Shown here: positions 13,656 to 24,149 of the stretch, one piece after another
How the letters are laid out: every line of letters starts with the position of its first letter
Numbering within the stretch: position 1 is the first letter of the stretch
Source of the DNA: Bacteroidia bacterium
GTDB taxonomy: Bacteria; Bacteroidota; Bacteroidia; Flavobacteriales; Flavobacteriaceae
Assembly: GCA_030431695.1 (NCBI GenBank)
Contig: JAUIIU010000001.1
Location: forward strand, 124,001 to 188,000
Length of the DNA: 64,000 nucleotides
Direction of reading: 5' to 3'
The notes under the pieces: model-generated
Told to the model about the DNA's origin: nothing
What the model saw: only the letters and a program-made list of their open reading frames with translations
Database searches by the model: none
Translations under genes and position numbers: made by a program

Positions 13656-15152
13656 ATGACACTAAAAGCTGTTGCCGCCAGGATATTTGCCACCAGGATA
13701 GCTAAACGCAATAAACGGTGGTCGTCCAAGCCTGTTGAGACCCAGCGGAGAGTGTTTCAATCACTTATTAAGCAAGGTACGAAGACCCATTTCGGAAAAG
13801 ACCATGGGTTTGATGAGATACGCACCCACCAGGATTTTGTTAAACGCGTACCTATAAGGGATTACGAGGGATTAAGGGACTATGTGGACCGAATGGTCGC
13901 AGGCGAACCGGATATACTCTGGCCGGGAAAACCACTTTACTTTGCCAAGACATCGGGCACAACTTCGGGGGCTAAATTCATTCCACTTACGAAGGATTCC
14001 ATGCCTGCTCATATACGGGCGGCACGTGATGCCATACTCACCTACATACACGAAACAGGCAGCTCGGAGTTTGTTAACGGAAAAATGATCTTCCTCCAGG
14101 GAAATCCCGGCCTCAAGGAGAAGAACGGGATCAAATTGGGAAGATTGTCGGGTATCGTGGCGCACTACGTGCCGGGTTACCTTCAGAAGAATCGCCTTCC
14201 AAGCTGGGAAACAAACTGTATTGAAGACTGGGAGACCAAGGTTGATGCAATCGTTGAAGAGACCATAAAGGAGGATATGACGGTGATCAGCGGTATTCCT
14301 TCCTGGGTTCAAATGTACTTCGAGAGATTGATCGAGGCCTCGGGGAAGAAAGTGGGGGAATTGTTCCAAAATTTCAACCTGTTCATCTACGGAGGAGTGA
14401 ATTACGAACCATATCGCTCCAAGTTTGAGGCTCTTATCGGCAGAAAGGTTGATAGTATAGAGTTGTATCCTGCCAGCGAAGGATTCTTTGCCTACCAGGA
14501 TAAGCAGGACGAGCGCGGGATGTTGTTATTGCTGAATTCAGGGATGTTCTATGAGTTTGTTGAGGCCAGCCGATTCTTCGATGAGGATCCGCCTAGACTC
14601 ACGATCTCCGAAGTGGAAACAGGAGTCAACTATGTCATGATCATTTCCACCAACGCCGGATTGTGGGGATATAATATAGGCGATACCATACAGTTCACCT
14701 CCACAGACCCTTATCGAGTGATCGTTTCAGGCAGGATCAAGCATTTTATCTCGGCATTTGGCGAACACGTAATAGGAAAAGAGGTAGAACAGGCGATGCA
14801 GTCTGCTATGGAAGAGCACAACTTCAGTATTACGGAGTTCACGGTTGCGCCTCAAACAAACCCGGGCGTAGGTCAGCTACCCTATCATGAGTGGCTGGTC
14901 GAGTTCGACAAACCCCCGGAGGATCTGAATGTTGTTGCCGGAAGTATCGATCGCCACATGCAGGCCCAGAACAGCTATTATTTCGATCTTATCGCCGGCA
15001 AGATATTGCAACCGCTTCAGATTAAATCCCTCGAAAAAGGCAGCTTCAACTTACTGATGAAACAACAGGGTAAGCTTGGTGGGCAGAATAAGGTGCCAAG
15101 GCTGTCCAATGATCGTAAAATTGCAGATGGCTTGTACAATTTACAACCATAA
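13656..15152 (+). CDS. GH3 auxin-responsive promoter family (acyl-adenylate-forming) protein
   Basis: A 498-residue protein of the GH3 family in the ANL superfamily of adenylate-forming enzymes. Plant GH3 proteins conjugate amino acids to acyl acids such as jasmonate and auxin; the substrate of bacterial members is unknown. The ATP-binding signature AKTSGTTSGAKFIPLT lies near residue 100. ELYPASEGFFAYQ near 270 corresponds to the second adenylate motif, and NAGLWGYNIGDTIQFTS with GRIKHFISAFGEH around 365 to the conserved Gly-Asp block. The length is shorter than plant members, as is common in Bacteroidota. It follows the M23 peptidase by 3 bases. The native substrate cannot be inferred from context. 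Confidence 0.88.
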   Translation: MTLKAVAARIFATRIAKRNKRWSSKPVETQRRVFQSLIKQGTKTHFGKDHGFDEIRTHQDFVKRVPIRDYEGLRDYVDRMVAGEPDILWPGKPLYFAKTSGTTSGAKFIPLTKDSMPAHIRAARDAILTYIHETGSSEFVNGKMIFLQGNPGLKEKNGIKLGRLSGIVAHYVPGYLQKNRLPSWETNCIEDWETKVDAIVEETIKEDMTVISGIPSWVQMYFERLIEASGKKVGELFQNFNLFIYGGVNYEPYRSKFEALIGRKVDSIELYPASEGFFAYQDKQDERGMLLLLNSGMFYEFVEASRFFDEDPPRLTISEVETGVNYVMIISTNAGLWGYNIGDTIQFTSTDPYRVIVSGRIKHFISAFGEHVIGKEVEQAMQSAMEEHNFSITEFTVAPQTNPGVGQLPYHEWLVEFDKPPEDLNVVAGSIDRHMQAQNSYYFDLIAGKILQPLQIKSLEKGSFNLLMKQQGKLGGQNKVPRLSNDRKIADGLYNLQP

Positions 15153-15175: not shown

Positions 15176-16846
15176 ATGAGCCCATTGACAGCCCATAAAC
15201 GAACGAGAGCACAGGAGAGTTCAGGAGCCATTGAACGGATGTACATCACCATGAGGCATTTGTTCAACAGGGGATTCTATAAACCTATGGGAATTTCCGG
15301 AGAAACCCTTCGTGAATCGCTGTTAATTCTAAGTCCTGAGATATATGGATCTATTACTGAAGAGAAGATCGAACTCGAAGGACTATTGTATGTAATAGAC
15401 AGGCTTCCTTATGGGATCGAAGAGTGCCGCTTCATCAATCTGACTTCAGACGAAGGGTACAAAAACTCACATTTCAAACCGATCATCCCTGCCAAAAGAC
15501 GCCGAAACTGCTACCGTATCGACGAGGAGCAGATGAATATTGAGATCACCAGGGGTAGGTCGGAAATTTACGATATACTCACTCACCTGACCTTCCTGTA
15601 CATCGAATCCCACAAGATCATGAAGCAGGTGATGATCAATGAGGCGGGAGACGTGATCCGGGATTGGAAGAAGCTGGAGGAGGCGGTAACCGTGAAAAAA
15701 GAGCTTTCTCAAAAAGACAAGGAGATCGCCCTCACCCACACGGCAAACTTCCTGGGAAGGACCTTCGAGGAGGTCAATGCCATCTATCCGCTCTTTGAAT
15801 GTGCGGAGATAAAGAACAGGTTCCTCAACATCATCTATTACCTCGGAAAGCTTGCCATGGAGGAGGTTATGACCGACACCCAGAGATTGATCACCTTCAG
15901 CCCTGTGCTCCGAGAGAGGCTGGGGCATCATATTCATGGTGAGCAGTGGGCCAGGAAGGTAAAACAAACCCTTAAGGATAAAGGTTTGCTTCAGCGGCCA
16001 TTGCACATCATCAGTGCGAATATGCACAGCGTACTGAACAGCCTGTTCGCGGCTAAGGCGCTTACAACCGAATTCAAGAACACCGAGGCCATTGCCATCT
16101 ACGAAAAGCTGAGCGACTCTCGGAGTCTGAAGCTTCAGCAAAAAGTAAAGAAGTACGCCCTCGCCAATGGATTGACCTACATTGAGGACGATTCCGGGGC
16201 CAATATCAACGTTCAGATCTTTGATTCGGCCTTCTTCTATGAGCCCGCAGTAGAACTTCCCACTGAGGATATGCCTGTGATCGTGGTGATGGACTATGCA
16301 TTTGGGGAACAAGCTTACGAGACCATGGATGAGCTCCTGAAGCCGCTAAATTCAGAAGGAAAACGAGAATTTCTGAATGTTGAATCCATCTCGATAATGG
16401 GAAAAGCCGGTATTCTTAGTGGTAAGAAAGGGGATATCATGATACCTACGGCGCATGTTTTCGAAGGAACAGCAGATAATTACCCATTTAAGAACAAACT
16501 AAAGAAATCGCATTTCGATGATATCAGCATAGATGTTTGTACGGGAACCATGATCACCGTACTCGGAACCTCTCTGCAGAACAGGGATATACTTAAGTTC
16601 TTCCACAACTCCACCTGGGATGTGATCGGGCTGGAAATGGAAGGAGCACATTACCAGAAGGCAATACAATCGGCTTCGAAGATCAGGGGAAGTATCAGTC
16701 CGAAAGTAGCTGTACGCTATGCGTATTATGCCTCGGACAACCCTCTGGAAACCGGAAGCACTCTGGCCCAGGGAGGACTGGGGACTGCAGGGGTTAAACC
16801 GACCTATGCGATCACTGAAAAAATGTTAAATCAGATTTTAGCCTAA
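15176..16846 (+). CDS. DUF6909-type protein with a nucleoside-phosphorylase-like C-terminal domain
   Basis: A 556-residue cytoplasmic protein with no signal or membrane segments. I recognise it as a conserved Bacteroidota protein that databases tend to list as DUF6909, with no assigned function. The N-terminal ~260 residues are helical and unrecognised. The C-terminal half shows a succession of motifs resembling the MTA/SAH nucleosidase-purine phosphorylase fold: SIMGKAGILSGKKGDIMIP (about 405-423), GLEMEGAHYQKA (about 485-496, with the Met-Glu pair that normally binds ribose), and VAVRYAYYASDNP (about 511-524, resembling the R..SD element carrying the catalytic Asp). This suggests an N-ribosyl hydrolase or phosphorylase, perhaps comparable in layout to AMP nucleosidase. 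That is inference from motifs only. Confidence 0.7.
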   Translation: MSPLTAHKRTRAQESSGAIERMYITMRHLFNRGFYKPMGISGETLRESLLILSPEIYGSITEEKIELEGLLYVIDRLPYGIEECRFINLTSDEGYKNSHFKPIIPAKRRRNCYRIDEEQMNIEITRGRSEIYDILTHLTFLYIESHKIMKQVMINEAGDVIRDWKKLEEAVTVKKELSQKDKEIALTHTANFLGRTFEEVNAIYPLFECAEIKNRFLNIIYYLGKLAMEEVMTDTQRLITFSPVLRERLGHHIHGEQWARKVKQTLKDKGLLQRPLHIISANMHSVLNSLFAAKALTTEFKNTEAIAIYEKLSDSRSLKLQQKVKKYALANGLTYIEDDSGANINVQIFDSAFFYEPAVELPTEDMPVIVVMDYAFGEQAYETMDELLKPLNSEGKREFLNVESISIMGKAGILSGKKGDIMIPTAHVFEGTADNYPFKNKLKKSHFDDISIDVCTGTMITVLGTSLQNRDILKFFHNSTWDVIGLEMEGAHYQKAIQSASKIRGSISPKVAVRYAYYASDNPLETGSTLAQGGLGTAGVKPTYAITEKMLNQILA

Positions 16847-16860
16847 TCTAAAAATTTATT

Positions 16861-17880
16861 TTGAGAAACGATAATATACTGATTACCGGGGGCGCAGGGT
16901 TCATAGGATCCAACTATGTGGCATATTTGATGGAATCCACAAAAGCCAACGTATATGTGCTGGACAAGCTTACATATGCGGGTGATATGCGGAACCTGGA
17001 ATCGGTTTCTGCCCTTCCCAATTGTCATTTCATACAGGGGGATATCTGCGACAAGGATTTTTTAGGAGAAATGTTTACGAAACACCAGTTTGACCAGGTG
17101 GTGCATTTTGCCGCGGAGTCACACGTGGATAATTCGATAAGCGGACCAGCCGCATTCATAGAAACGAATATCGTGGGCACATTTAACCTGCTACAGGCCG
17201 CGTATACTACCTGGATGGAAGGCCCGGGCAAAACGAAACCCGGATTTGAGCACGCTCGCTTTCTGCATGTGTCTACAGATGAAGTATACGGCACACTGGG
17301 GGAAACCGGTCTTTTTACTGAAACCACTCCATATGCCCCGAACAGTCCCTATAGCGCATCCAAGGCGTCATCCGATTTTATCGTGCGGAGTTACTTTCAT
17401 ACCTATCAGTTGCCTGTTGTCACCACAAATTGCTCGAACAATTACGGTCCGAACCAACACAAGGAAAAACTAATCCCCACCATCATTCGCAAAGCACTTA
17501 CTCGTGAACCTATACCTATCTACGGTGACGGCACCAACGTGAGAGACTGGCTTTATGTCCTGGATCATTGTAAAGGGATCAAGCTGGCGGTTGAAACGGG
17601 TAAATTGGGGGAAACCTATAACATTGGAGGGCGAAATGAGCGACAGAACATCTATATTGCAGAGAAGATCTGTGAGATCCTTGATGAGTTGGAACCTTCA
17701 GAATCCCCATACAAGGATCAGATCACTTATGTCACCGACCGTCCGGGGCACGATTTCAGGTATGCGATAGACGCATCAAAAATTGAAGACGAATTAGGCT
17801 GGAAGGCCGATGAGAACTTTGAAACAGGGATCACCAAGACCATAGCGTGGTACCTTGAACACCGAGAAAGACTACATTGA
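16861..17880 (+). CDS. rfbB: dTDP-glucose 4,6-dehydratase
   Basis: RmlB, 339 residues, converts dTDP-D-glucose to dTDP-4-keto-6-deoxy-D-glucose with bound NAD+, the second step of dTDP-L-rhamnose synthesis. It shows the Rossmann motif [35 protein letters not shown] (Asp/Glu of the active site) and the catalytic [18 protein letters not shown] and [10 protein letters not shown] are also typical. The start is a TTG at 16861, 14 bases after the preceding stop; no ATG or GTG is available upstream in frame. It opens the polysaccharide locus and is followed by rfbA after one base. Confidence 0.97.
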
Positions 17881-17881
17881 T

Positions 17882-18736
17882 ATGAAAGGAATCATTTTAG
17901 CCGGAGGATCAGGAACAAGGTTGCACCCTATAACCCTTGCAGTGAGCAAGCAACTGATGCCTGTATACGATAAACCGATGATCTATTATCCCTTGTCCAC
18001 GCTGATGTATTCGGGTATCCGGGAGATTCTGATCATTTCAACACCGCAGGACCTGCCCTTGTTTCAGAAGTTGCTTGGAGATGGAAGTAAATATGGTTGC
18101 ACATTCGAATATGCCGTACAGGAAGAACCCAGGGGACTGGCGGAAGCTTTCATTATTGGGAAAGAATTCATAGGGGAGGATAAGGTTGCCCTGATCCTTG
18201 GGGATAATATTTTCTACGGAACTGGCCTCAAAGAACTTTTACTATCGAATAACGATCCGGACGGCGGTGTCATCTATGCCTATCACGTGCACGACCCCGA
18301 ACGTTATGGTGTTGTTGAATTCGACAAATCCGGTAAGGTGCTGTCCATAGAGGAGAAACCGAAGAACCCAAAATCCAATTACGCTGTGCCCGGGATCTAC
18401 TTTTACGATAATTCTGTTGTCGAGATCGCCGCGGGGATCAAACCCAGCGCAAGGGGAGAGCTAGAGATCACCGATGTGAACAATGCTTTTCTCAAGGCGG
18501 GTAAGCTCAATGTGAGTATACTGGATAAGGGAACAGCCTGGCTGGACACCGGGACCTTTGCTTCCCTGATGCAGGCGGCGCAATTCGTGGAAGTGATCGA
18601 AGAGCGACAAGGGCTAAAGATCGGCGCGATCGAGGAAGCGGCCTACGATATGGGCTATATAGAAGGAAAACAATTAAAGGAATTGGCCGAACCGTTATTG
18701 AAAAGCGGTTATGGAAAACACTTACTTCATCGATAG
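17882..18736 (+). CDS. rfbA: Glucose-1-phosphate thymidylyltransferase
   Basis: RmlA, 284 residues, joins dTTP and glucose-1-phosphate to give dTDP-glucose, the first step of the rhamnose pathway and normally feedback-inhibited by dTDP-rhamnose. The nucleotide-binding signature [17 protein letters not shown] starts at the ATG, followed by [18 protein letters not shown] and later [30 protein letters not shown] and [14 protein letters not shown] are family hallmarks. ATG at 17882 is chosen because it begins directly at the signature; an earlier in-frame ATG lies inside rfbB. Its end overlaps rfbC by 26 bases. Confidence 0.97.
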
Positions 18737-19286
18737 CAGTTTGGAAAAGATCAATACCCACCTGGAAGGTTGTTTTATACTGAAACCACGTGTTTTTTCA
18801 GATGCGCGGGGTTCCTTTTCTGAAACTTTCAACTCGCGAACATTCAAAGCAGTGACGGGCTTTGACGTGGACTATGTTCAGGACAACCAGTCGCTTTCTA
18901 CTTACGGGGTATTGAGAGGGCTCCATTTTCAACGAGGTGAGATGGCCCAGGCAAAGCTGGTCCGCGTTGCAATGGGTCGGGTATATGATGTTGTGGTGGA
19001 TATTCGGAAGGGATCTCCAACTTTCGGTGAATCCTACGGGGTTGAATTGAATGACGAGAACAACTACCAGTTATTTGTACCCAGGGGATTCGCACATGGA
19101 TTTATCGTCCTGTCCCCCGAAGCAGTTTTTTGCTACAAATGCGACAATTATTACGATAAGGAATCGGAAGGCGGCATCATATACAACGACGCAACCTTAG
19201 CACTGGACTGGCATCTTCCTGAGGAAGATTTTATTATTTCAGAAAAAGACCTGCAACTTCCCGGATTTGAGGAGGCAATTTCATGA
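18711..19286 (+). CDS. rfbC: dTDP-4-dehydrorhamnose 3,5-epimerase
   Basis: RmlC, 191 residues, epimerises C3 and C5 of dTDP-4-keto-6-deoxyglucose. It is a cupin; [27 protein letters not shown] with the catalytic His after GL, and [12 protein letters not shown] are the conserved blocks, followed by [10 protein letters not shown]. The start lies 26 bases inside rfbA and the end overlaps rfbD by four bases (ATGA), so the four rml genes are translationally linked in the order B-A-C-D. Confidence 0.96.
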
Positions 19287-20146
19287 AAAACGTACTGGTA
19301 ACAGGGGCAAACGGGCAATTAGCAAGATGCATTGAGAAAGCAGCTTCCGCCTTTCCGGAGCTGGCATTGCATATGGCCTCACGAGAAATACTGGATATTG
19401 AAGACCAGGACGCAATTCTCAATTATCTGCGGGAGCATGGTATCGACATCTGCATCAATACAGCGGCCTACACTGCCGTAGATAAGGCCGAAAGTGAGAA
19501 GGAACAGGCCTTTGCGGTGAATGCTTCAGCGGTAAAGGCATTGGCTGGGTCCTGCGCATCGAATAATATTCCGCTTATCCATGTTTCAACCGACTATGTT
19601 TTCGACGGGACCAAGACCAGTCCGTATCAAGTGACGGACCCGGTTAACCCCATCAATGTATATGGGGCATCGAAACTGGCCGGGGAACAATACGTTCAGG
19701 AACTGTGCAGCAGGTATTTTATCGTACGAACGTCCTGGTTGTATTCGGAATACGGTCATAATTTCTTTAAGACCATTCTGAAGCATGCTAACGCCGGGAA
19801 TCCGCTTACCATTACTACGGAACAACTGGGGTCGCCAACAAACGCCAATGACCTTGCCGTAGCGCTGCTTACTATCGCAAACAGTGGGTCCAATGCCTAT
19901 GGGGTGTATCATTTCAGCAACGAAGGAGAAGCCACCTGGTATGATTTTGCTGAAGCCATACTTGAAGAATCGGGACAATTAGCGAGTACAGACCTTGCCA
20001 AAACCGACCATTACCGTACTTTTGCGGAAAGGCCGGCGTACAGTATATTGGATAATACAGAGATTTATGGGGAATTCGGCATCACTCCCATTCACTGGAG
20101 GGAAAGCCTGAAAACCTTGTTTGTAGAAAATAATAATCATAAATAG
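19283..20146 (+). CDS. rfbD: dTDP-4-dehydrorhamnose reductase
   Basis: RmlD, 287 residues, reduces dTDP-4-keto-L-rhamnose to dTDP-L-rhamnose with NADPH, completing the pathway. The N-terminal NVLVTGANGQLAR is the NADP-binding motif. NTAAYTAVDKAESE, HVSTDYVFDG, and the catalytic YGASKLAGEQ are all standard, as is RTSWLYSEYGHNFFKT. Its ATG overlaps the rfbC stop, and a Wzz-like gene begins six bases after its end. Confidence 0.97.
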   Translation: MKNVLVTGANGQLARCIEKAASAFPELALHMASREILDIEDQDAILNYLREHGIDICINTAAYTAVDKAESEKEQAFAVNASAVKALAGSCASNNIPLIHVSTDYVFDGTKTSPYQVTDPVNPINVYGASKLAGEQYVQELCSRYFIVRTSWLYSEYGHNFFKTILKHANAGNPLTITTEQLGSPTNANDLAVALLTIANSGSNAYGVYHFSNEGEATWYDFAEAILEESGQLASTDLAKTDHYRTFAERPAYSILDNTEIYGEFGITPIHWRESLKTLFVENNNHK

Positions 20147-21241: not shown

Positions 21242-22552
21242 ATGACCCTATTTTCCAAAATCAGATCATTAATGGGCTCTTCCCTGGTGGGGAGTAGCCT
21301 TAATGTGCTTATGATAAGGGTTATGGGGGTTGTACTGTTCTTTGTAACCACCTTGTATATTACCAATAACTTCGATCCTGAAGGAGTTGGGCAATACGAT
21401 TTCAGCCGGTCCTTGCTAATATTCCTGGGCGCGGTCGCTTTATTCGGGATGCAACAATCGATCATTTACTTTTCCGGATACCTGAGCGCGAGGAAGCGTC
21501 TGGGGCATCTGAAGAAGATCTACCTGAAAATGGTTGTCCTGGTGTTCGGATTGTCGGCACTCGTTTTTGTAATAGGGCGATTGATGAACCTCGAGTATAT
21601 CGTTGCCATTACTTCTTTTGAAATAAGCGACACAGCCCTGAAGACCATTACGGCACTTTTTTTTTACGCCCTGACAATGCTGAATATTGACGCGTTCAGG
21701 GCCGTAAACAAGATCTACCTATCCGAAATTCAAAGGAACATCCTCCGTTATCTTTTGTTCTTCCTTGCTGTGATAGCGATCAACATGATGGATCAGCCGG
21801 AAAAACTGGTCGATGTATTCCTGTGGAACTTCGCGATACTTGCCGTTTTATCCACTTTTGTGCTTTTCTTTTACTTTCCGAAGGAAGGATTAACAGAAGA
21901 AGAGGAGATCTTCAGGTCGCGGGACATTCTGAGGCGATCGGCACCCATGGCTGTCAGTGCTGTGGCGTTCTTATTGATCCAGAGTCTCGATATCCTTATG
22001 TTGAGTAGCCTTAGTAACTATGAAACGGTGGCCTATTACGGTGTGGCAGTAAAGTTAACTACCCTGGTGTCCATAGTGCTCACTTCGGTGAACGCAGTTA
22101 TTGCTCCAAGGATCGCCGAATTCTTCACTGCCCGGAACAGGGAAGCTTTGAATACCACGATCCAAAAGGCCACCCAGCTTGTATTTGTGATCACGGCACC
22201 AATGATCCTGGTATTGGGAATTTTTGGGATCACCATATTGAAGATATTTGGAGAAGGCTATGAGGCGGCCAACTGGGCCCTTGTAATTTTGTTGGCCGGC
22301 CAGGCGGTGAACACCCTCTGTGGCTCTGTAGGTGTTTACCTGAATATGACCGGAAAGCAAAAGATATTCCAGGTGATACTCCTATCGGCACTGGCGATAA
22401 ACGTCGCACTTAATTTCATTCTGATACCGGAATACGGAATGAACGGAGCGGCTATAGCAACTGCCTTCAGTGTTATCTTATGGAATATTGCCGCAGTGTA
22501 TTACGTGTATAGAAAGGACAGGATTAGAATATTTTTAAACCTGAAAAGATGA
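21242..22552 (+). CDS. Wzx-type oligosaccharide flippase
   Basis: A 436-residue multi-spanning inner-membrane protein of the MOP/polysaccharide transporter superfamily, predicted to flip undecaprenyl-linked repeat units to the periplasm. The N-terminus MRVMGVVLFFVTTLYITNNF followed by GVGQYDFSRSLL resembles the family's first two helices, and about 12 hydrophobic segments follow. NMTGKQKIFQVIL and LIPEYGMNGAAIATAFSVIL near the end are typical of Wzx. A 90-base gap separates it from the Wzz-like gene; its stop overlaps the next ATG (ATGA). Confidence 0.88.
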   Translation: MTLFSKIRSLMGSSLVGSSLNVLMIRVMGVVLFFVTTLYITNNFDPEGVGQYDFSRSLLIFLGAVALFGMQQSIIYFSGYLSARKRLGHLKKIYLKMVVLVFGLSALVFVIGRLMNLEYIVAITSFEISDTALKTITALFFYALTMLNIDAFRAVNKIYLSEIQRNILRYLLFFLAVIAINMMDQPEKLVDVFLWNFAILAVLSTFVLFFYFPKEGLTEEEEIFRSRDILRRSAPMAVSAVAFLLIQSLDILMLSSLSNYETVAYYGVAVKLTTLVSIVLTSVNAVIAPRIAEFFTARNREALNTTIQKATQLVFVITAPMILVLGIFGITILKIFGEGYEAANWALVILLAGQAVNTLCGSVGVYLNMTGKQKIFQVILLSALAINVALNFILIPEYGMNGAAIATAFSVILWNIAAVYYVYRKDRIRIFLNLKR

Positions 22553-23463
22553 AAAGGTTGGTGGATTTCTTTGTGATCGGTGTTGCCCGCGGGGGAACCA
22601 CTTCCCTGTACAATTACCTGCAGCAACACCCCAGGATCTTTCTGCCAAGGGTTAAGGAGTGTAATTACTTTTCCGAAGTGGACACCCTGGACAAGGAGGC
22701 CTACAAAGACCCTCAGCCTGGAAAAGACTATCATCAGAAGATCATACGAGACGAAAAGATCTATCAGGGTTTGTTCAACGATGCTGAAAATGACCAGCTA
22801 AGAGGAGATGTGAGTCCTTCCTATCTCTGGGATAAAAATGCTGCCGCCCGAATTCATGATTATAACCCGGAAGCAAAGATCCTTGTGAGCCTGCGCAACC
22901 CTGTGAAACGGGCTCATAGCCATTACCTGTTGCACTTCCAGACAGGGCATGACAAGTCGGCGTCCTTCGAAGAGGCACTCACCGCACCAAAAAGGGAGAT
23001 ATGGGGAGGGGGAAATATGTATCTCGAAATGGGACGGTATTACGAGCAATTAAAACCGTATTTCGAACTTTTTAACAGGGAGCAGATCAAGGTGCTTATT
23101 GCGGAGGACTGGACATCCCGAAATGGAGATGCCCTGAACGAGATCTTTGATTTCCTCGGAATCGAATACGGCCGAATAGACGATGGATCAGTCGATCAGA
23201 ACGCATCCAGGAAAATAAAGAACAAAGGCCTGCTGGATGTGCTGCGGTTGGAAGGGATAAAGAAACCTATCAAATGGCTGCTTCCGGAGCAAACTAAGGA
23301 AAAGCTGAAAGATCGGTTGTTTTACAAGGAAGGCGAAAAAGTAGCCATTGATCCCGACACCTATGAAAGGCTTATGCGGAGTTATGAAAAAGATATCGAG
23401 CAAACATCGCAGCTTACAGGAATAGACCTGAAAAAATACTGGCAAACAGATACGGTGCAATGA
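22549..23463 (+). CDS. Sulfotransferase domain protein (first of a tandem pair)
   Basis: A 304-residue PAPS-dependent sulfotransferase. The 5'-phosphosulfate loop GVARGGTTSLYNYL is at residues 11-24 and the 3'-phosphate motif VSLRNPVKRAHSHYL at about 113-127, with the conserved Arg and Ser. There is no signal peptide, so it acts in the cytoplasm, presumably on lipid-linked sugar intermediates before flipping. It overlaps the flippase gene by 4 bases and the second sulfotransferase by 4, so it belongs to the polysaccharide operon. No PAPS-synthesis genes are in this window. Confidence 0.88.
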   Translation: MKRLVDFFVIGVARGGTTSLYNYLQQHPRIFLPRVKECNYFSEVDTLDKEAYKDPQPGKDYHQKIIRDEKIYQGLFNDAENDQLRGDVSPSYLWDKNAAARIHDYNPEAKILVSLRNPVKRAHSHYLLHFQTGHDKSASFEEALTAPKREIWGGGNMYLEMGRYYEQLKPYFELFNREQIKVLIAEDWTSRNGDALNEIFDFLGIEYGRIDDGSVDQNASRKIKNKGLLDVLRLEGIKKPIKWLLPEQTKEKLKDRLFYKEGEKVAIDPDTYERLMRSYEKDIEQTSQLTGIDLKKYWQTDTVQ

Positions 23464-24149
23464 TAAGTGAGAAACATAATACGATCTTCGTGCATATCCC
23501 GAAAGTAGCGGGACAGAGTATTGAGACTATTTTTCTGAAGGACCTGGGACTCAACTGGCAATCGCGGGGAGAGTTGTTGTTGCGTAAAAAGAAAGCGGGG
23601 GAAAAAGGCCCGGACAGGCTTGCGCACCTCAGGGCGGTGGAGTATACGCAGTTCGGTTATACCGATAAGAAGACCTTCGATGATTATTTCACCTTTTCAT
23701 TCGTCAGAAACCCCTACAAACGACTATTGTCTGCTTACAATTACCTCGGCTATTCGAAGATCATATCATTTGAGACCTTTATGAAGCACGTGGTCTCGGG
23801 GAAACTGGAGGATAGACACTTCTTCTTTATTTCGCAGTACGACTACCTGTATAGCGGAGAACAACTGCTGGTGGACTATGTGGGAAAGCTTGAAAACCTG
23901 AATGCAGATATGCAATATGTGCTTGAGAAAACAGGTTTGTCCGGTCATGAGATTCCCCATGTGAATAAATCCGAAAAAGGCCTGAAGCGAGGGATCGCGG
24001 CTTTGGTGAAATCCCCAAAACTTTGGACAAAGTTCACCCCCGGCAGGTTGTTTTCGGCAAAGAAAAAGAAGGAATTGACCCCTGAAGAAAAAGAACTGGT
24101 GTACATGATGTACTCAAAGGATTTCGAGAAGTTTCAGTATGAGCGATAA
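23460..24149 (+). CDS. Sulfotransferase family 2-type protein (second of a tandem pair)
   Basis: A 229-residue protein with FVHIPKVAGQSIETIF (residues 10-25), which matches the 5'-phosphosulfate loop of the Golgi carbohydrate sulfotransferase (sulfotransfer_2) group, and FSFVRNPYKRLLSAYNYL (about 79-96), the 3'-phosphate site. It is not a duplicate of its neighbour: length and motifs differ, so the pair probably sulfates two positions or sugars. It overlaps the next glycosyltransferase gene by 11 bases. Confidence 0.87.
   Translation: MISEKHNTIFVHIPKVAGQSIETIFLKDLGLNWQSRGELLLRKKKAGEKGPDRLAHLRAVEYTQFGYTDKKTFDDYFTFSFVRNPYKRLLSAYNYLGYSKIISFETFMKHVVSGKLEDRHFFFISQYDYLYSGEQLLVDYVGKLENLNADMQYVLEKTGLSGHEIPHVNKSEKGLKRGIAALVKSPKLWTKFTPGRLFSAKKKKELTPEEKELVYMMYSKDFEKFQYER

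Follow-up and report, generated by a model that had tools for sequence, protein, structure and literature searches.

DUF6909, a Bacteroidota family with a predicted nucleoside phosphorylase fold, as a candidate stand-in for the short AMP nucleosidase

The E. coli-type AMP nucleosidase, Amn (TIGR01717; PDB 1t8s, 2guw and 7uwq), is built on a two-domain plan, and its N-terminal domain regulates activity. A short AMP nucleosidase (AMN) of Bacteroidota (NF005500 / TIGR01721), whose activity on AMP is taken here from its family name, has about 260 amino acids and no such N-terminal domain; 1ybf, listed in the PDB as an AMP nucleosidase of 268 residues, is of this short type. The short AMN belongs to the PNP/UDP phosphorylase superfamily, as does DeoD, the hexameric purine nucleoside phosphorylase. 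Here we describe a protein encoded in a 64,000-nucleotide stretch of a Flavobacteriaceae genome (contig JAUIIU010000001.1, positions 124,001 to 188,000), hereafter called the window. The Pfam family to which it belongs, DUF6909 (PF21850), is already known and carries no assigned function; the fold and likely role proposed below are new. A literature search for DUF6909 found no paper, and the titles and abstract openings among the AMP nucleosidase papers listed included none about DUF6909 or about Bacteroidota AMP nucleosidases.

The gene opens with ATG and encodes 556 amino acids. The protein is a full member of DUF6909, at 197.8 bits (E 3.3e-58) against a gathering cut-off of 27. A set of 40 genomes made up of the own genome and its relatives gave DUF6909 matches in 27, counting the own one, and the 26 others were 57-90% identical to the window protein; in the phylum sample it was found in 43 of 296 genomes, and in none of the 14 control genomes. 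In a scan of contigs, at least 586 stretches were confirmed and the 80 best retained. The nearest among these best 80 of at least 586, with 88% identity, came from a metagenome-assembled 'Flavobacterium sp.', and their record titles were mostly of Flavobacteriaceae or of genera of that family. The features of the gene are as follows.

15176..16846, forward strand: DUF6909 protein, whole gene with stop (ORF calling; PF21850, E 3.3e-58)
15176..15940, forward strand: N-terminal domain, residues 1-255, mostly helical (models, fold searches, conservation)
15926..15940, forward strand: HHIHG, residues 251-255, putatively at the place of E. coli Amn RHYTG (placement by eye; H252 and G255 in 150/150 rows, H251 in 143/150)
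15941..16843, forward strand: predicted PNP/UDP-phosphorylase-fold domain, residues 256-556 (Foldseek; VIA Z 16.7 over 212 residues; PNP_UDP_1 sub-threshold in 11/22 members)
16004..16039, forward strand: first strand and loop HIISANMHSVLN, residues 277-288 (S280, N282, H284, S285 and N288 each in 150/150 rows)
16040..16273, forward strand: residues 289-366, with conserved DxSGxNIxVQIxD (alignments A1 and A3)
16400..16447, forward strand: GKAGILSGKKGDIMIP loop, residues 409-424 (hhalign to GKCGGLxxxxxxGDLILP of Bacteroidota AMN; conservation)
16565..16582, forward strand: GTSLQN, residues 464-469 (aligned at the AMN TTNRRVWE segment)
16631..16645, forward strand: LEMEG, residues 486-490, Met-Glu at the ribose-binding position (aligned with AMN DMET/DMES; M488 and E489 in 150/150 rows)
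16733..16744, forward strand: SDNP, residues 520-523, Asp521 at the catalytic position (aligned with AMN SDQP/SDKP; D521 in 150/150 rows)

The initial annotation had proposed a nucleosidase/phosphorylase fold for the C-terminal half, with structure prediction and a fold search set beforehand as the check. The AlphaFold2 model, built from 48 sequences, had a mean pLDDT of 77.1 and a pTM of 0.64; near the expected pocket, residues 375-378 and 531-535 fell below a pLDDT of 50. On this model the C-terminal half matched the PNP/UDP phosphorylase superfamily, in agreement with the proposal. Foldseek with the full model gave 207 PDB matches at E <= 0.001, and the 50 rows shown were all enzymes of the superfamily. 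The top two were AMP nucleosidases (2guw, E 1.6e-5; 1t8s, E 2.9e-5). Their TM-scores, normalised by target length, were 0.32 and 0.29; the AMN rows spanned 0.28-0.32, whereas single-domain phosphorylases mostly reached 0.4-0.5. VIA placed model residues 256-556 on a DeoD-type phosphorylase with a Z of 16.7 and an rmsd of 3.0 over 212 aligned residues. Many VIA rows were tied, and the 50 shown were all superfamily members (phosphorylases, MTA/SAH nucleosidases and futalosine hydrolases), with no AMN row among them; this absence is no evidence against a link to AMN. The fold thus leaves several subfamilies in play. That residues 256-556 adopt the PNP/UDP phosphorylase fold is, judged from the model, near certain.

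Profile searches pointed the same way at lower strength. PNP_UDP_1 (PF01048) matched residues 401-491 of the window protein at E 0.037, its 13.9 bits lying below the gathering cut-off of 25.1. Among 22 diverse DUF6909 members it appeared at E <= 10 in 11 (best E 0.022), and every other family, DUF6909 itself aside, in at most two. Pox_VLTF3 (2/22 members, E 0.0007) and Methyltrn_RNA_4 (1/22, E 0.0009) were set aside as isolated matches, although their E-values were better than the best of PNP_UDP_1, and the isolated matches to Succ_DH_flav_C and Actin-related protein 5 were likewise discarded. PDB sequence searches with the window protein or with profile A1 retrieved no relevant chain.

Conservation was determined on 150 aligned rows, that is, the window protein and 149 loci with none dropped, 142 of them distinct. 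The motifs noticed at the outset lie at residues 409-424 (GKAGILSGKKGDIMIP), 486-493 (LEMEGAHY) and 511-523 (VAVRYAYYASDNP). M488, E489, S520, D521, P523, N282, H284, H252, G409, K410 and G412 were identical in all 150 rows, and so was each residue of GTSLQN from G464 to N469. The ribose-binding Met-Glu and the Asp of the SD motif, hallmarks of the superfamily, were therefore present where they had been claimed, in all rows and in the hhalign alignment. Because these residues (Met488, Glu489, Ser520, Asp521, Gly409, Lys410 and Gly412) are invariant and the C-terminal half is predicted to have the PNP/UDP fold, the motifs go beyond chance. Their order was as claimed for MTA/SAH nucleosidase-like enzymes; their spacing agreed only roughly, as Glu489 and Asp521 are 32 residues apart, 9 more than the 23 between E405 and D428 of Klebsiella AMP nucleosidase given in PMC9584410. 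Residues 289-366 exceed the matching stretch of short AMN in length (alignments A1 and A3), and within them Q347 was conserved in 150, D350 in 149, and G341 and N343 in 148 of the 150 rows.

The short Bacteroidota AMN and DUF6909 share GKxG, GDxxxP, GTxxxxY, ME and SD-P in one order. In hhalign, GKAGIL, GDIMIP, GTADNY, LEMEG and SDNPL of DUF6909 were paired with GKCGGL, GDLILP, GTSNDY, IDMET and SDQPM, respectively. The score of 23.1 compared with a mean of 15.7 (sd 3.2, maximum 26.3) for 60 column shuffles; MTA/SAH nucleosidase (MTAN) scored 21.6, and DeoD 19.1, which is within its shuffle range (mean 16.0, sd 3.4, maximum 30.5). Comparison of DUF6909 with single sequences by hhalign was uninformative. 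The link between AMN and DUF6909 is thus, from sequence by itself, suggestive only. Neither the NCBIfam AMN models (TIGR01717 and NF005500, the latter the short-AMN HMM) nor the MTAN model (NF004079) was listed at E <= 10 for any of the 22 members, in searches where the filters of HMMER let few matches above about 0.1 through. By sequence, DUF6909 belongs to neither the AMN family nor the MTAN family.

The likeness to AMN ends at the substrate contacts. PMC9584410 describes Arg381, Trp383 and Lys436 (E. coli/Klebsiella numbering) as making base, sugar and phosphate contacts, and H188 and Y189 of Amn as stabilising phosphate from the apposed chain. In the short-AMN alignment of 18 rows, R162, W164 and K217 are invariant at the places of Arg381, Trp383 and Lys436, within RRxW and, for the Lys, after SDxP. 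DUF6909 had no partner for any of the three at the aligned places, which, by sequence and to within one residue, are taken by T465/S466, L467/Q468 and T529/L530, each in 150/150 rows. DUF6909 is for this reason not placed in the AMN family. Near the missing contacts, residue 470 was basic in all 150 rows (K in 80, R in 70) and Trp481 was invariant in alignments A1 and A2; these two might be substitutes. Two further placements, made by eye from motif context, would be plausible: RLGHHIHG of DUF6909 (H251, H252) beside RLRHYTG of Amn (H188, Y189), and N282 (in ISANMH) beside Amn N205 (in FTNYTR).

A two-domain plan resembling that of E. coli Amn had also been suggested. The outline held, but homology of the N-terminal halves was not detected: the N-terminal domain of DUF6909 modelled alone (pLDDT 75.5) gave no PDB match by Foldseek at E <= 0.001, and its best VIA Z was 5.1 over 49 residues. 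The domain matches the whole protein in its level of conservation, with a mean column identity of 81% against 79%, and R27, H28, R76, R108, R114, H137 and R195 are each invariant in 150/150 rows. It also carries a KRRRNCYRID stretch.

We compared the occurrence of DUF6909 (PF21850) and of short AMN (NF005500 over its curated cut-off) in identical genome samples. The samples overlap and are not independent, the own genome being in those of the phylum, the class and the relatives, and the Fisher p-values take no account of relatedness among genomes. In family f22, sampled with one genome per genus (68 genomes), 36 had DUF6909, 29 had AMN, none had both and 3 (G574, G584, G595) had neither over cut-off (p 4e-16). 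The corresponding numbers were 43, 79, 0 and 174 in the phylum sample (n=296; p 8e-7), 21, 175, 0 and 50 in the class sample (n=246, requested completeness >=95%; p 4e-13) and 27, 4, 0 and 9 in the own genome and relatives (n=40; p 0.008). G010, from the same family as the window genome, had AMN and no DUF6909, and families f1, f19, f65 and f104 held both kinds, always in different genomes. The own genome had neither AMN nor MTAN over cut-off in profile searches; its three PF01048 genes over cut-off were PunA, DeoD and a uridine-phosphorylase-like one, and its weak NF005500 match falls in the deoD gene.

Matches below the cut-off were also inspected. Of the 174 phylum-sample genomes with neither gene, 41 had an AMN-like match of 164-181 bits against the cut-off of 264, and none of these carried DUF6909. 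These 41 genomes are mostly of f37, with others of f35, f56 and f64, and their AMN-like domain lies inside frames of 393-482 amino acids, which may point to an extended form of AMN with an additional domain. Weak NF005500 matches with a printed score in DUF6909 genomes of the phylum and class samples were all below 45 bits. In f22, seven DUF6909 genomes had weak AMN-like matches: 29-44 bits in G545, G579, G575, G582 and G586, 75.0 bits in G600 (C6:85960-86406), and 66.5 bits in G539, which also has two partial matches (65.9 and 51.1 bits) in a 616-amino-acid frame. G539:C192:19762-20409 and G600:C6:85960-86406 are the closest approach to an exception; judged by their scores, the proteins concerned may be AMN-like or come from elsewhere in the superfamily.

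Two enzymes of the same superfamily served as controls. DeoD was over cut-off in 14 of the 68 f22 genomes, 7 of the 36 with DUF6909 and 7 of the 29 with AMN. MTAN was over cut-off in 11 of the 246 class genomes, 3 of the 21 with DUF6909 (G114, G395, G500) and 8 of the 225 others. Neither DeoD nor MTA/SAH nucleosidase therefore showed a pattern of exclusion with DUF6909. We also built an rpoB tree of 30 hand-picked genomes, 15 of each kind, from the 65 f22 genomes bearing either gene; by construction, pairs differing in DUF6909 differ oppositely in AMN in this sample. The best tree had 7 changes of state, and 200 bootstrap trees gave 6-7 switches in the 5-95% range and a single switch in 0%. 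Strongly supported branches alone force only 2 switches, and the label was more clustered on the tree than by chance, as expected from inheritance; an equally low count arose in 16 of 500 shuffles.

The gene neighbourhood was examined for partners. A GH3-type gene (13656-15152, labelled by ORF reading) ends 23 bases upstream of the DUF6909 gene, and this gene and a putative M23-type gene of the window had matches in the flanks of all 80 named DUF6909 loci, upstream among the matches listed. In 16-kb stretches at 11 more distant loci, no neighbour from the window recurred and neighbour families reached at most 3 of the 11 loci (F7, at L166, L167 and L171); F17 was close to the DUF6909 gene at L164 and L169, and F18 at L164 and L165. 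The GH3 neighbour is thus taken to reflect local gene order rather than function, and a functional tie to it was set aside. DUF6909 and AMN loci had one distal neighbour family in common, F8, and further loci with short flanks gave little information. The lack of a partner gene conserved across families fits a stand-alone metabolic enzyme. Downstream in the window, ORF reading gives a putative dTDP-rhamnose-type set (rfbB, A, C, D) at 16861-20146, and one flippase-like and two sulfotransferase-like ORFs within 21242-24149.

The distribution is the strongest evidence on the function of DUF6909, and it favours the earlier suggestion of an unannotated nucleotide N-ribosyl hydrolase. An N-ribosidase or phosphorylase that shares the fold but has a different substrate (a nucleoside monophosphate other than AMP, a deoxynucleotide, a modified nucleotide or NMN), and whose work overlaps with that of AMN so far that a genome can dispense with either, is possible but rather unlikely. 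The stacking Trp and two phosphate residues of AMN are not retained and the invariant GTSLQN stands in their place, and the longer 289-366 segment and the N-terminal domain could reshape the pocket; the exclusion, however, is specific to AMN and absent for DeoD and MTAN. It is less probable still that the exclusion is lineage history alone and the role of DUF6909 unrelated to AMN. The clustering on the rpoB tree and the mere 2 forced switches would suit such a history, but the 7 switches of the best tree, the lack of any bootstrap tree with one switch, the four further families holding both kinds in separate genomes and the flat DeoD control all speak against it.

The comparison with MTA/SAH nucleosidase fared worse. 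Its fold, its ME and SD motifs, the hhalign score close to that of AMN and the want of MTAN over cut-off in the own genome could suggest that DUF6909 is such an enzyme, yet three genomes carry MTAN together with DUF6909 and the MTAN model was listed for 0 of 22 members, leaving this identity very improbable. A catalytically dead, PNP-fold nucleotide sensor would account for the altered base-binding loop; as M488, E489 and D521 are identical throughout, and as a sensor replacing an enzyme would leave the exclusion unexplained, we give this reading hardly any weight.

A PNP-fold N-ribosidase standing in for AMP nucleosidase is preferred since it accounts for the fold, the conserved residues and the distribution together. 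We thus consider it reasonably probable that DUF6909 is a PNP/UDP phosphorylase-fold nucleotide N-ribosidase that replaces the short Bacteroidota AMP nucleosidase. Its functional equivalence to short AMN is likely, and it is most likely a nucleotide N-ribosidase that has diverged and bears an N-terminal domain of its own, probably hydrolysing AMP. AMP is the substrate that we infer, a reading weakened because the Arg, Trp and Lys of AMN are missing. In the proposed mechanism, Glu489 and Met488 would bind ribose, Asp521 would protonate the base, and the HHIHG segment, the N-terminal domain or both would hold the 5'-phosphate, so that AMP and water would yield adenine and ribose 5-phosphate. The adenylate pool would thereby be limited and adenine supplied to salvage, and the N-terminal domain may have a regulatory role, as in E. 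coli Amn.

More broadly, and with confidence only a little better than even, DUF6909 may be a second class of AMP nucleosidase that has escaped recognition. It would combine a PNP-fold catalytic domain, its base and phosphate site rebuilt, with a novel conserved N-terminal domain, maybe nucleotide-sensing, and it and the classical enzyme would have replaced each other many times as Bacteroidota evolved. The analysis offers a testable function for a family present in several Bacteroidota families. DUF6909 would fill a gap in the purine metabolism of Bacteroidota, and together with AMN would provide a clean case of repeated displacement of one enzyme by another; if true, it would also represent a new mode of AMP binding in the nucleoside phosphorylase fold.
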